From: Streptomyces sp. DvalAA-14
GTDB taxonomy: Bacteria; Actinomycetota; Actinomycetes; Streptomycetales; Streptomycetaceae
DNA length: 64,000 nucleotides
Direction: 5' to 3'
NCBI RefSeq assembly: GCF_900091855.1
Contig: NZ_FMCH01000325.1
Span: forward strand, 1-64,000
Made by a program: the position numbers and the translations under genes. The notes beneath the pieces are model-generated. The model was given only the letters and a program-made list of their open reading frames with translations. It made no database searches and was not told the DNA's origin. Positions 14,272-18,079 of this stretch are shown one piece after another (position 1 is the first letter of the stretch; each line of letters opens with the position of its first letter).

Positions 14272-14360
14272 CCCCGGCCGGACCATACCCTCCGCACCCC
14301 CCTCACGCCCGCCCGAGCCACCGGGACCAGCGGGCACCGGCGTGCCCTGGCACCGCCTTG

Positions 14361-14387
14361 ACGTTAGTCAGTTTTCATGACTAATGT
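14361..14387. promoter_or_regulatory. Inverted repeat, candidate MarR operator
   Basis: ACGTTAGTCA-7 bp-TGACTAATGT: 10-bp arms with one mismatch (7 bp perfect: TTAGTCA/TGACTAA). It sits 90 bp before the NAD(P)-binding gene and 90 bp after marR. It is AT-rich against the local background. Confidence 0.6.
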
Positions 14388-14477
14388 TGGTGATCGGACC
14401 TTCGCCGCGTACGGCACGCCGCCATCGCCGGCGACCTGAGGAGGTTCGACTCGGCCGTCAACAGAGAGCGAATCGTC

Positions 14478-15104
14478 ATGAGGTTTCTCGTCCTTGGAGC
14501 AACCGGTCGCACCGGCGTCCACTTCGTCAAAAAGGCACTCGATGAAGGACACCAGGTCAGCGCCCTCGTTCGGAGGGCCGACGCCACCGTTGACCCGCGC
14601 GCTCACATCATCAGCGGCGACGTCACTGACGCCGCCGTGATCGCGGCGGCAGCTCAGGGCCACGACGCTGTCATCAGCACGCTCGGAAACGCCCGCGAAG
14701 CCCCGACGCTGATCACCGACGCTGTCCGTGCAGTCATCGCCGCCGCGAAGACTTCAGGCGTTGACCGATTCATCATCGTTTCCGCGTTCGGAGTCGGTGA
14801 CTCCCTCACCAAAACCTCATTCCTCGTACACGCCATTGTGCGCACCATGCTTCGCAAGAAATACGCGGACAAAGTCGCGGCGGAAGCGCTCTTGAAGGCC
14901 AGCGATCTGAAATGGACCATCGAATATCCCGGGCCATTGAACAACCGAAGCAACACCCGCTACGCCGAGACCGTGCTCGAGGATCTCAAGAAGCTGTCGA
15001 TCTTCCCCTCGACCTCGCGCGAAAACGTCGCCGACTTCCTCCTCCGCTCCGCCGTGGAAGGCACCTTCATCCATCAGATCGTCGTCGTCGCCGACACCAA
15101 ATAG
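14478..15104 (+). CDS. NAD(P)-binding atypical SDR (NmrA/SDR-a5-like)
   Basis: 208 aa. The Rossmann start RFLVLGATGRTGVHFVKKAL has the GxxGxxG dinucleotide motif. It continues with HDAVISTLGN, SGVDRFIIVSAFGVGD and DLKWTIEYPGPL, as in NAD(P)H quinone oxidoreductase-like proteins. No YxxxK catalytic pair is obvious. Composition is less GC-rich than the neighbours, which could mean recent transfer. The inverted repeat upstream suggests MarR control in response to a redox-active or phenolic ligand (inference). Confidence 0.82.
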   Translation: MRFLVLGATGRTGVHFVKKALDEGHQVSALVRRADATVDPRAHIISGDVTDAAVIAAAAQGHDAVISTLGNAREAPTLITDAVRAVIAAAKTSGVDRFIIVSAFGVGDSLTKTSFLVHAIVRTMLRKKYADKVAAEALLKASDLKWTIEYPGPLNNRSNTRYAETVLEDLKKLSIFPSTSRENVADFLLRSAVEGTFIHQIVVVADTK

Positions 15105-15251
15105 GTCACCGATGCGGAGCACGGTGAAGCGGTGACAGCAGGTCGGGTGGGTTGCGACGGCAGGCGGGGTCGCTGCTGCCCAGCTCCTCCTGCCCGATCG
15201 GGCGAGAGCGGTGTGTTTGTCCCCCGGGTGGACCTGAGCAACGCGAGGCTC
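15105..15251. other. Short gap before the IS630-type element
   Basis: No gene recognised between the NAD(P)-binding gene and the left terminal repeat. It defines the left flank of the transposon (ends ...GAGGCTC). Confidence 0.4.
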
Positions 15252-15284
15252 AGTGGTCGGAGCCCGAAGTCCTTCGGGGGTTGA
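15252..15284 (+). repeat. Left 33-bp terminal inverted repeat
   Basis: Begins AGTGGTCGGAGCCCGAAG. Identical over 33 bp to the complement of 17797-17829. Contains an internal palindrome CCCGAAG-TC-CTTCGGG able to form a hairpin. Confidence 0.92.
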
Positions 15285-16486
15285 TCACGTTGCTGGTGCG
15301 GCGGAGGATTCTTCCTGTCGGTCGAGTGTGTGTCGGCCGAGCCGGGCCAGCAGATTGTCCAGGTCGGAGGTGGTGAACTTCCACTGGAACGGCTGTGCTG
15401 TGGCGTTGTAGCGGTCTTCGAAGGCTCGGAGCTGGTCTCGGATCTGGTCGAGGTCCGTGAAGTCGTTGGGTGCCACGACTTTGGGTTGGACGACGGAGAA
15501 GAAGATCTCTATCTGGTTGGTCCAGGAGGCGTGGACCGGGGTGTGGACCATGACGGCGTTGGGAAACGCCTTGGCCAGGCGGTCGATGGCGGCCTTGCCG
15601 CGGTGGGAGGAGCCGTTGTCGACGATCCAGAAGACGCGCTTCGCGCTGGCGTAGGGCTCGCTGGTCATGACCTGGGTGACCAGATTCAGGAAGGGCACGA
15701 CGCCGGTGGTGGGCTCGCAGCGCCCGAGGACACGGGCGTGGTGGACGTCGTAGGCGGCGAGGTAGGCCAGGCACCGCCGCGTCGGTACTCGTGGTTGACC
15801 CGCATGGCCCGGGCCTGTCCGGGGGCGAGGGTGGGGTGGCAGCGGCAGCGGACCTGGATCGAGGTCTTCTCGTCGCTGGAGAGTACGTACTCGTCCGCGC
15901 CCAGCGGGACGCCGTCGAAGGTACCGGCATACAGGTCCATGATGCGGGCGGCCTTGGGCCGGAACTTCGGATCACGGATGAAGATCCAGGACTGGTACTG
16001 CCAGGGCTTGAGGGCGTCCTCGCGCAGCCAGCGGCGGACGGTGGAGGCGGAGATCGAGCCGGCGATGCGGCGGACGACGACCTCGCGTGCCAGTTCCGGG
16101 CACGACCAGCGCGACAGCGGGGTGCCAGTCTCGGCGGGCAGTTGGCAGGCCAGGGCCTTGACCTCGGCGACCTGCACCGGGGTGAAGCGTCGTGGACGGC
16201 CGCAGCGCCTGCGGTCGGCCAGGGCGGCCAGGCCCCCGTCGGCGAAGCGGCCCCGCCAGGTGCGCACGGTGTCCAGGTGCGCTCCCGTTTCGCGGGCGAT
16301 CGCTGCGTTGCCCAGCCCCCGGGCAGCCTGCAGCACGATCTGCGCCCGCAGGCGGTCCTGGTGCGGGGTCCTGTGGCCGTAGGCCGCCTTCTTCAGCCGG
16401 TGCCGTTCGGCCGCGGTCAGGACGATCGGGCGTGCGGTGGCTACGAGCAAGGCAGGCAGGCCGTTCAGTAGAAGCGGACAGGGCAC
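15285..16486 (-). pseudogene. IS630-family transposase, two overlapping frames
   Basis: The first frame starts at GTG 16486, set by GGGAGG seven bases upstream. It has helix-turn-helix segments (AAIARETGAHLDTVRTWRGR; STVRRWLREDALKPWQYQSW) and the first catalytic Asp in VLSSDEKTSIQ. Near 15766 one base is missing relative to the family (GCC TGG | CCTACC), and the frame closes. The second frame resumes with PFLNLVTQVM, the second Asp in WIVDNGSSHRG and the Glu in ASWTNQIEIFFSVVQPKV, ending at 15285. All three DDE residues survive. No slippery run is visible at the shift, so inactivation (or a read error) is likelier than programmed frameshifting, although the latter is known in the family. Confidence 0.85.
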
Positions 16487-16531
16487 CTGGAGCCTCCCGC
16501 ATCCAGCCCGACTGTTGGCCGCCCAGATCCA

Positions 16532-17728
16532 TCAGATGGTGAACAAGCTGTCCGGCCCGCCGATCCGGCGGATCGCCTCCAGGGGATAAGGGGTCTGCCT
16601 GCTCTCAAAACGGAACTCGCGGTAGTAGTCCGTCATCACTGCGGCGACCGGGGCGTGGCGGATGAGGATCGCCGCGACCTGCGGCGGAATTCCCGTCGGA
16701 GGTTCCCCTCGGGCGCAGGCGCGCATGAACGCGCTGCGCTCGTCCCCGTCGTACCCGTACAGGGCGGTGGTGAGCCACTGCACCAGGTGGGTGACGGTGT
16801 AGCAGCGGTCATAGGTCTGGTGTTCGGCGAAGAAGTCGACCTCCTCCTTCGACAGGTCGAACCGGGAGGAGATCGCGAGGCCGTAGTCCGTGAAGAACAG
16901 ACGCTTGCCGTCGGTGAGGATGTTCTGGAAGTGGCCATCGAAGTGCAGGAGCCCACGGGCGTTCATGAAAGAGGTTCCGGCCTCAAGTTCCTTCGCCACC
17001 ATGGTGCATGCCTGCTCGGCCGTCTCACCGTCGGCTTTGACCTGAACGTCCAGCCAATCGTGCAGGTTCTGCGGGATGTACTCCATGAACAGTGCGACGC
17101 TCGCCGAGGAGTCCCGCAGCGCCTCGATCCGGTGGCGCACCTGCGGGTTGCCTCCCCAGTACGCGACAGCTTTCTCCACGTCGGCTAGTTGCTCGGGCAG
17201 CTCCTGCCCGGGGTGCGGCAGCACCCGCCAGTGGTACATCAAGGGGAAGCCCTCATGGTCCTGTGCGAGCACCCAGTTCGTCGTCATGGTGTGCACGGCC
17301 AACTCCCGCCAGGCCCCCCATCCCGGGCCTCCGGGGACCCCGAGGCCGGGATGGCAGAAGGTAGGTAGCCCGAAGAGGTTCGCCGTGGATTGGACGTTCT
17401 CCGGCTGCCTTTCCAGATCGGTCAGCGGCAGCCGCTTAACGAAGACTGGAGTCCCCCCGACCTCCAGCAACGCTGAGGTCCCGCCGATGCCAGCACCCAG
17501 CGGCGCAGCCGTATCCACAAGTTCGCCCAGTTCGCGATCACTGCACAGCGCCAGCGATGTGGAGACGGCACTGTAGGCACCCAAACGCGCACCACGTGAC
17601 GCGTCGAAGCTCTCGACGGCTACCTCCACCAGAGCACCAACCTCTCTGAAATACCTGGGCCCGTCCAAAGGGCGCGCACACGCTACGCATAGCCCTGCGG
17701 TTCGCCCCCTGGCATGGGCGGAGGGCAT
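16532..17728 (-). CDS. Protein-kinase-fold protein carried by the IS630-type element
   Basis: About 398 aa. PVFVKRLPLTDLE has the lysine of the ATP site. RGLLHFDGHFQNILTDGKRL is a kinase catalytic loop (HFDxHxxN), followed by FFTDYGLAI in place of DFG. FMEYIPQNLHDWL marks the hinge. It resembles small-molecule/antibiotic or Ser/Thr kinase-like proteins of Streptomyces, but the substrate is unknown. It ends 45 bp before the transposase start on the same strand, so the two may be co-transcribed. The start is uncertain: ATG 17728 is used, and a later GTG near VEVAVESFDASRG is possible. It probably serves as cargo benefiting the host or element (inference). Confidence 0.75.
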   Translation of the reverse strand: MPSAHARGRTAGLCVACARPLDGPRYFREVGALVEVAVESFDASRGARLGAYSAVSTSLALCSDRELGELVDTAAPLGAGIGGTSALLEVGGTPVFVKRLPLTDLERQPENVQSTANLFGLPTFCHPGLGVPGGPGWGAWRELAVHTMTTNWVLAQDHEGFPLMYHWRVLPHPGQELPEQLADVEKAVAYWGGNPQVRHRIEALRDSSASVALFMEYIPQNLHDWLDVQVKADGETAEQACTMVAKELEAGTSFMNARGLLHFDGHFQNILTDGKRLFFTDYGLAISSRFDLSKEEVDFFAEHQTYDRCYTVTHLVQWLTTALYGYDGDERSAFMRACARGEPPTGIPPQVAAILIRHAPVAAVMTDYYREFRFESRQTPYPLEAIRRIGGPDSLFTI

Positions 17729-17796
17729 CCAGGACCCGTAACACGGATCCGAACACCTTTTGGCCGCACAATACGTGAAGATCGACAACCTAGGGG

Positions 17797-17829
17797 TCAA
17801 CCCCCGAAGGACTTCGGGCTCCGACCACT
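17797..17829 (-). repeat. Right 33-bp terminal inverted repeat
   Basis: Exact complement of 15252-15284. It lies immediately upstream of the kinase-fold gene and may carry its promoter. Confidence 0.92.
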
Positions 17830-18079
17830 AAGGCGTCGGCTCGGTCAGAGTCGTGATCGTCGCGGTGGCCGCGGCGACGACCGCGCGACGGTGGGTCGCT
17901 ACCCGACGGCGCGCCTGTGCCTCGTCGCGCCTGGCGGCCACGGCGACGTCAGCACGGGTGGCTGCCGCTCGGCGCCCGTTGATCGTGAATCGGGGAACGG
18001 GGACCCCGGGGACCGTGGACCAGGCTGCCGGCGGCTGCCCGCCTCGCCGGCAGTCGGGCCCTGGGACAGCCCCAGTCGG

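Follow-up and report, generated by a model that had tools for sequence, protein, structure and literature searches.

Structure of the element in the window

The stretch of DNA analysed here, referred to as the window, comprises 64,000 nt of the genome of Streptomyces sp. DvalAA-14 (contig NZ_FMCH01000325.1, positions 1 to 64,000). Within it, a segment of 2,576 bp (15253–17828) is enclosed by inverted repeats and contains two genes, both on the minus strand: the gene of a transposase of the insertion sequence (IS) type IS630, and a gene for a protein with a kinase-like fold (Table 1). The transposase matched the Pfam families HTH_32 and DDE_3, and its intact relative L131 reached 174.5 bits with the model NF033545 (cut-off 100), which represents IS630-type DDE transposases. 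The kinase matched the Pfam family Pkinase with an E value of 4.7e-5, which is below the gathering cut-off, and APH with an E value of 0.006. These matches confirm a preliminary description of this DNA, according to which the repeats enclose a DDE transposase and a kinase-like gene.

Over 36 nt, the inverted repeats (15249–15284 and 17797–17832) are 97% complementary, and a core of 32 bp is perfect. The preliminary description had given 33 bp as perfect; base 33 on each side (15252 A and 17829 T) is a member of the flanking TWA trinucleotide in the relatives and belongs to the target site. The 32-bp repeat occurs just twice in the 7.94-Mb genome (669 contigs) when up to three mismatches are allowed, so the earlier statement that no third copy lies inside the segment holds. 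The reversed repeat, which served as control, gave no match in this genome. A composite transposon was ruled out, since a single transposase module and a single repeat pair are present and not two full IS copies.

The window most probably contains, in decayed form, a two-gene transposon of the cut-and-paste kind with an IS630-type DDE transposase, 32-bp ends and a kinase gene as passenger (probability about 0.91). In the proposed mechanism, the transposase would act on the two 32-bp terminal repeats, the whole segment between them, including the stand-alone kinase gene, would be moved, and insertion would take place into CTWAG with duplication of the 3-bp TWA.

Table 1. Features of the IS630-type element and its borders in the window
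Feature	Position	Strand	Remarks
Trinucleotide outside the transposase-side end	15250–15252		TCA on the plus strand; match to 17829–17831 expected, one base off
Transposase-side terminal inverted repeat	15253–15284	+	32 bp
Transposase module	15253–16504	-	common to relatives with other cargo; positions 1–1253 of the 2,578-bp query
IS630-type transposase	15285–16486	-	frames 15686–16486 and 15285–15698; one-base deletion at ~15.77 kb in comparison to relatives
Kinase-fold passenger gene	16532–17629	-	365 codons, GTG start
Region upstream of the kinase	17630–17796	-	also present in other kinase units, as far as about 17789
Distal inverted repeat	17797–17828	-	same sequence as the transposase-side repeat; ~120–130 bp nearer to the kinase than in L044, L045 and L124
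Trinucleotide outside the distal end	17829–17831		TAA on the plus strand

Occurrence of the two-gene unit at other loci

A search for the same two genes at other loci, as proposed in the preliminary description, revealed related kinase units in five other genomes or plasmids, and the DNA identity of the aligned pieces to the window ranged from 81% (L053) up to 96% (L044 and L052). Plasmid NZ_CP108024.1 of Streptomyces sp. NBC_00316 contains both genes and the ends (94.6% identity over 99% of the query). The further units are L044 in NBC_00154, L052 in NBC_01549, which is split by nested insertions, L045 in TRM68367, of which the right part is gone and one end only is present, and L053 in Kitasatospora sp. 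MAA19. Twelve flanks (535 to 1,000 bp) of six kinase units showed no cross-match at E 1e-3, and the 3-bp flanks are identical in three of the five two-ended kinase units (L044, L052 and L124). The two-gene unit occurs whole at unrelated sites and with the same ends, as the earlier suggestion of a passenger-bearing transporter IS implied.

Between the window and L044, the synonymous divergence (dS) of the kinase (0.083) is similar to that of the transposase (0.071), which is expected if both genes travelled together. Furthermore, repeat remnants were detected at comparable places beside kinase copies in Kribbella (L066), Peterkaempfera (L048) and the genomes G030 (L190) and G176 (L192), and in Actinokineospora (L057) a remnant of the transposase side lies 59 bp past the kinase match.

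Ends and target site of related elements

Related elements were collected by searching 394 genomes of the family with the whole element as query (E 1e-3, two candidates scored per genome); this is a sample only. At least 318 of the 394 genomes matched the query, and among the matches listed many consist of the transposase half alone or of the kinase half alone. Stretches were taken around the transposase-side ends and around 14 plasmid hits. Left out were L178, L180 and L181 (no transposase match), L177, L179 and L184 (weak or fragmentary), L164 and L165 (the same elements as L146 and L148) and L190–L194 (fetched for the kinase). In 45 of the resulting 56 elements both ends were located, with sizes from 1,657 to 6,108 bp; the longest is the nested L052 (6,108 bp), followed by L161 (4,630 bp, flanks unequal) and L215 (3,881 bp).

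Identical 3-bp flanks were present in 30 of these 45 elements, in comparison to 17.1 under shuffled pairing, and none of 20,000 shuffles reached 30. The flanks were TAA on both sides in 16 elements and TTA on both sides in 14, with TTA/TAA in four, TAA/TTA in one and other combinations in 10. The base before the trinucleotide is a C in 42 and the base after it a G in 43 of the 45 elements. The TA duplication expected in the preliminary description gives way to a 3-bp TWA in most members. The two ends of one element also resemble each other in their 8-base spacers, which agree at 6.02 of 8 positions within elements versus 4.96 after shuffling (0 of 5,000 shuffles) and are identical in 14 of 42 elements (2.9 expected); L161, L175 and L220 were excluded from this count for poor ends.

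A 1.2-kb unit with the transposase only, named in the preliminary description as a finding that would speak against a passenger, was not present among the 45 two-ended elements. The other such finding, the kinase gene at this locus without the repeats, did not turn up either. The shortest unit, L222 (1,657 bp), also contains an orphan frame of ~110 amino acids; L222 (3431–5087) and L223 (3396–5061) are 1.66-kb relatives from Rhodococcus plasmids, in which this orphan gene and the transposase are divergently arranged. The flank pairing and the empty sites described below led us to reject the possibility that members have a single gene and that their far end was misread.

A repeat-bounded unit of 1,259 bp with TAA on both sides, in which no transposase was found, lies in L179 (3743–5001). 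It contains a frame of 242 amino acids that looks secreted, and the repeat of element L187 begins directly after the TAA that it has in common with this unit.

Exchangeable cargo and its mobility

The gene slot beside the transposase has exchangeable contents in this lineage. Cargo frames were picked by codon composition, some were named by eye, and families were assigned with Pfam. In the slot, GNAT acetyltransferase, SnoaL-like protein, carbon-nitrogen hydrolase, F420/P5C-reductase-like protein, TetR regulators, HEAT repeats, a serine beta-lactamase fold, alpha/beta hydrolase, aldo/keto reductase, pyridine-nucleotide oxidoreductase, glyoxalase-like proteins (two), MFS transporter, MerR with a DNA-polymerase-beta-clamp domain, carboxymuconolactone decarboxylase (CMD), MarR with zinc dehydrogenase, and amidase were identified. 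The flanks of the P5C-reductase (L189), CMD (L172) and alpha/beta-hydrolase (L175) units are not identical; with these set aside and the kinase counted, at least 15 gene types occur in units with matching flanks. A regulator is combined with an enzyme in L182 (Pfam) and L221 (annotation), and a TetR-like frame, named by eye, lies beside an enzyme in L163, L172 and L174. The ~110-aa orphan gene, for which no Pfam or NCBIfam match was obtained, was found in divergent orientation in 11 of the 56 elements, among them both from Rhodococcus, and five others (L158, L169, L175, L185 and L186) contain pieces of it. Judged from the gene families, the cargo is probably unrelated to transposition.

Empty sites were searched with the junctions of 25 elements (60 bp per side and one TWA) in the 394 genomes at E 1e-18 and were accepted if at least 96 bp aligned contiguously across the TWA. 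They were found for the SnoaL unit L159 in three genomes, each with CTTAG once, for the GNAT unit L130 at a paralogous place in its own genome (CCTAG) and for the orphan unit L155 in three genomes (CTATG). None was found for the other 22 elements in this search, five kinase units included; since two candidates were scored per genome, a missing empty site says little. The comparison with empty sites suggested in the preliminary description has thus yielded sites for SnoaL, GNAT and orphan units and, so far, none for kinase units.

Some units are duplicated. The two copies of the SnoaL unit in genome G256 agree in 1,890 of 1,897 bases and lie in unrelated surroundings, and the 3-bp flanks match at one place and not at the other; an interrupted copy (~99%) is present in plasmid NZ_CP108735.1. 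The orphan unit is duplicated in G062 (1,671 of 1,677 bases identical). A further unit, common to L171 (2181–5000; G142:C3) and Streptomyces NBC_00354 (L219, 1846–5172) with 89–94% identity, contains a MerR regulator joined to a DNA polymerase III beta-clamp domain, as found with Pfam on the L171 cargo gene; the two genomes probably represent two genera. The carbon-nitrogen hydrolase elements L151 and L212 were rejected as a recurring unit, because their DNA did not align. Close relatives of the window element with other cargo thus have empty sites and duplicate copies, and it is likely that these moves were made by this transposase via cut and paste.

The kinase and its possible function

The kinase frame is open out to 17800, and the start at 17629 is most likely the correct one, as it matches the start of the annotated sister protein WP_328891983.1. 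The residues K65, D231, N236, D248 and G250, which we take to be the catalytic lysine and the residues of the HxD..N and DxG motifs, do not vary in an alignment of 40 sequences, made up of the window kinase and 39 relatives with 64–94% identity, and this invariance makes catalysis likely. An AlphaFold model of the protein was too poor for a fold search (mean predicted local distance difference test score 52.7). A sequence search of the PDB with the kinase yielded weak matches to generic kinases, and matches to de novo and RTX proteins were taken as chance.

The frame is free of stops and frameshifts in seven of eight copies, the eighth (L052) being cut by a nested insertion, and kinase pairs showed ratios of nonsynonymous to synonymous substitution rates (dN/dS) of 0.18–0.47. 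The kinase probably persists through a benefit to the host, because its frame has remained open in units with a broken transposase. Tentatively, we regard it as a stand-alone kinase of proteins or small molecules that is of benefit under certain conditions.

The preliminary description had considered the modification of antibiotics or proteins or a role in defence; no test provided support for a role of the kinase in resistance, modification or defence. An anti-phage or toxin-type cargo is unlikely. Weak PADLOC matches to PD-T4-6 kinase models were obtained, and a passage in PMC8649781 mentions that Tn7-like transposons often carry defence genes. The best of these matches (E 0.0028) covers 75 of 443 profile positions, is not full-length and is limited to the generic catalytic region. 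Moreover, no conserved neighbour of the kinase was detected across 74 loci, where the largest neighbour family was present at eight and in varied positions; none of 15 candidate relatives in viral contigs was confirmed as such, and phage records contained no DNA resembling the query.

A second, more distant kinase copy (65–68% protein identity) was found in the genome of the window strain (G000:C346:23251–24395). It consists of two matched pieces and has an internal stop.

State of the transposase and of the window copy

In the window, the transposase gene is split into two overlapping frames by a frameshift relative to its relatives. None of the six kinase units has an uninterrupted transposase, versus 28 of all 56 related elements; uninterrupted means here one frame covering at least 375 of 388 residues, scored by the coverage of a single high-scoring segment pair. 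In the kinase copies L048 and L190 the transposase is reduced to its 5' part. Two-frame transposases exist in IS families, and the split gene might in principle be a working programmed-frameshift gene of an element that is still active. The overlap of the two frames would fit such a gene, as would the plasmid copy L214, for which the annotation gives two overlapping genes. This reading is nevertheless quite improbable, as a single uninterrupted frame is present in the 28 relatives mentioned and the breaks in the kinase-unit transposases fall at differing positions.

The distal end of the window element also differs from that of its relatives. In L044, L045 and L124 the distal repeat lies 320–329 bp from the kinase match, and its spacer in L044 and L124 is GGCTCCGG. 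In the window this distance is 199 bp and the spacer is GGAGCCCG, and the only other occurrences of this spacer among the 42 elements are on the transposase side of L044, L052 and L124. From spacer and position, the perfect repeat of the window looks secondary. The window element has presumably lost its original distal end, and a copy of the transposase-side end now lies nearer to the kinase; this replacement may illustrate how new cargo limits originate.

No intact close relative of the transposase was found in the genome of the window strain. The only other close copy (88%), at G000:C35:309–1352 (L156), is truncated and has a stop and one intact end; all further matches were fragments with 66–69% identity or distant (26–36%), with one distant match free of stops. 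With a frameshifted transposase, no intact close relative, unequal flanks and a copied far end, the window copy appears to be dead. The earlier view that the element spreads a kinase is supported by the relatives, in which the unit recurs at unrelated sites; the window copy itself looks inactive.

Alternative explanations and contrary observations

It might be argued that the kinase is an accessory transposition factor and not a passenger, as both genes are co-oriented and were moved together. This is slightly less probable still than a programmed frameshift: transposases with ~90% DNA identity are paired with a GNAT or a 110-aa orphan gene instead, the kinase is open where the transposase is broken, and stand-alone kinases without detected repeats are widespread. 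The new position of the distal repeat, the unequal flanks of the window and the chromosomal location of most kinase relatives examined, without a detected repeat, could suggest that a host kinase was framed by chance, with a transposase-only element on one side and a solo repeat of unrelated origin on the other, and never moved with the transposase. This is barely conceivable, since the gene order recurs at unrelated sites with matching flanks, further copies have repeat remnants at comparable places, and transposase-only elements are absent among the 45.

Several observations weigh against a two-gene transposon with the proposed target site. The 3-bp flanks of the window, TCA and TAA, differ in one base, the flanks of L053 in MAA19 are likewise unequal by one base, and 15 of the 45 elements lack identical 3-bp flanks. 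Four of the 45, with TTA/TAA, are compatible with a 2-bp TA duplication, in opposition to a strict 3-bp rule. The nearest upstream repeat was taken as the distal end, and this pairing can err. Among the seven empty-site alignments, the trinucleotide is preserved in three and differs by one base in four. For the window, L044, L052, L124 and L053 no empty site was present in the 394 genomes (two candidates per genome), and for the window none was detected in 35 genomes of the genus with eight candidates per genome, in which no match spanned both flanks. Furthermore, dN/dS of the transposase among kinase units is mostly 0.25–0.60 (1.29 for L044 versus L124, from few changes), thus also mostly below 1, and the contrast between kinase and transposase therefore relies on frame integrity. 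Taken together, the ratios of both genes suggest that both were constrained during most of their history and that the transposase lesions are recent.

Relation to known systems

Passages in the literature describe IS630 elements with a single transposase gene and a TA duplication (PMC2170065), a general 2-bp TA duplication (PMC10045372) and one or two open reading frames in about 1,250 bp (PMC11092175). With canonical IS630 and Tc1-mariner elements, for example ISY100, the elements described here have in common the IS630-type DDE transposase, terminal inverted repeats and a TA within the target. In contrast to the descriptions in those parts of PMC2170065 and PMC10045372, most members have a 3-bp TWA instead of the 2-bp TA, and the elements comprise at least two genes instead of one. 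The view that IS630 elements are normally single-gene, expressed in the preliminary description, thus does not extend to this group, in which the apparently basal element is two-gene and cargo-bearing relatives are common.

Transporter ISs, as defined in passages of PMC9330008 and PMC3129680, the latter citing studies of the IS1595 family for this concept, likewise have one transposase, one pair of ends and passengers unrelated to transposition. Being IS630 by the transposase and divergent in duplication and gene number, the elements are termed here an IS630-type lineage and a variant of the transporter IS. The L179 unit, repeat-bounded and without a detected transposase, resembles mobile insertion cassettes or miniature inverted-repeat transposable elements, whereas a transposase, be it intact or broken, is present in the other units. 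Tn7-like transposons also combine a shared mobility module with cargo of great diversity, as far as the relevant part of PMC8649781 describes them. Tn7-like transposition is performed by a multi-protein machine, whereas the elements described here have one transposase gene and mostly 1.7–4 kb. In the accessible parts of the literature, which was largely open-access, no IS630-type element with passenger genes was found; the nearest remark, in a passage of PMC7232470, concerns two strains in which regulators lie downstream of transposase genes that are not further specified.

History of the elements

With Rhodococcus as the root, the transposase tree shows elements with the orphan gene at scattered positions and elements with cargo in between, a pattern consistent with cargo having been acquired many times independently. 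Support is low at several deep nodes of this tree, and L171, of which the transposase is partial, consequently forms a long branch. The apparently basal form of the element is already a two-gene unit of 110-aa orphan and transposase. Kinase units are located on two branches: the window group lies beside the GNAT unit L130, and L053 lies beside the carbon-nitrogen hydrolase element L212 (support 1.0). In the inspected part of the midpoint-rooted kinase tree, kinases accompanied by repeats or pieces of the transposase belong for the most part to two groups in one clade (support 0.994), which also contains kinases lacking these features from Nocardia, Actinopolymorpha, Kitasatospora and others. 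The kinase may therefore be an old element-borne gene that was often stranded.

On even odds, this IS630-type lineage of the Streptomycetaceae is a small gene-shuttling platform, in which the ancestral slot of the 110-aa orphan was refilled repeatedly with chromosomal genes, sometimes a regulator together with an enzyme, and in which a terminal repeat placed beyond a gene gives rise to a new unit, as in the window copy. A multi-cargo branch of IS630 with mostly TWA duplications would represent a route of horizontal gene transfer that has been overlooked in antibiotic-producing actinobacteria, and a simple two-ended system for studies on the capture of cargo by an insertion sequence. Such elements hide genes, for example the stand-alone kinase in several actinobacterial genera, and a kinase that outlasts a dead transposase suggests a function worth finding.

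The left neighbour of the element in the window, a gene for an NAD(P)H-binding protein (14302–15111), is conserved in several relatives of the genus. The similarity to those relatives ends just past the stop codon of this gene, and the right-hand flank is therefore possibly of other origin.

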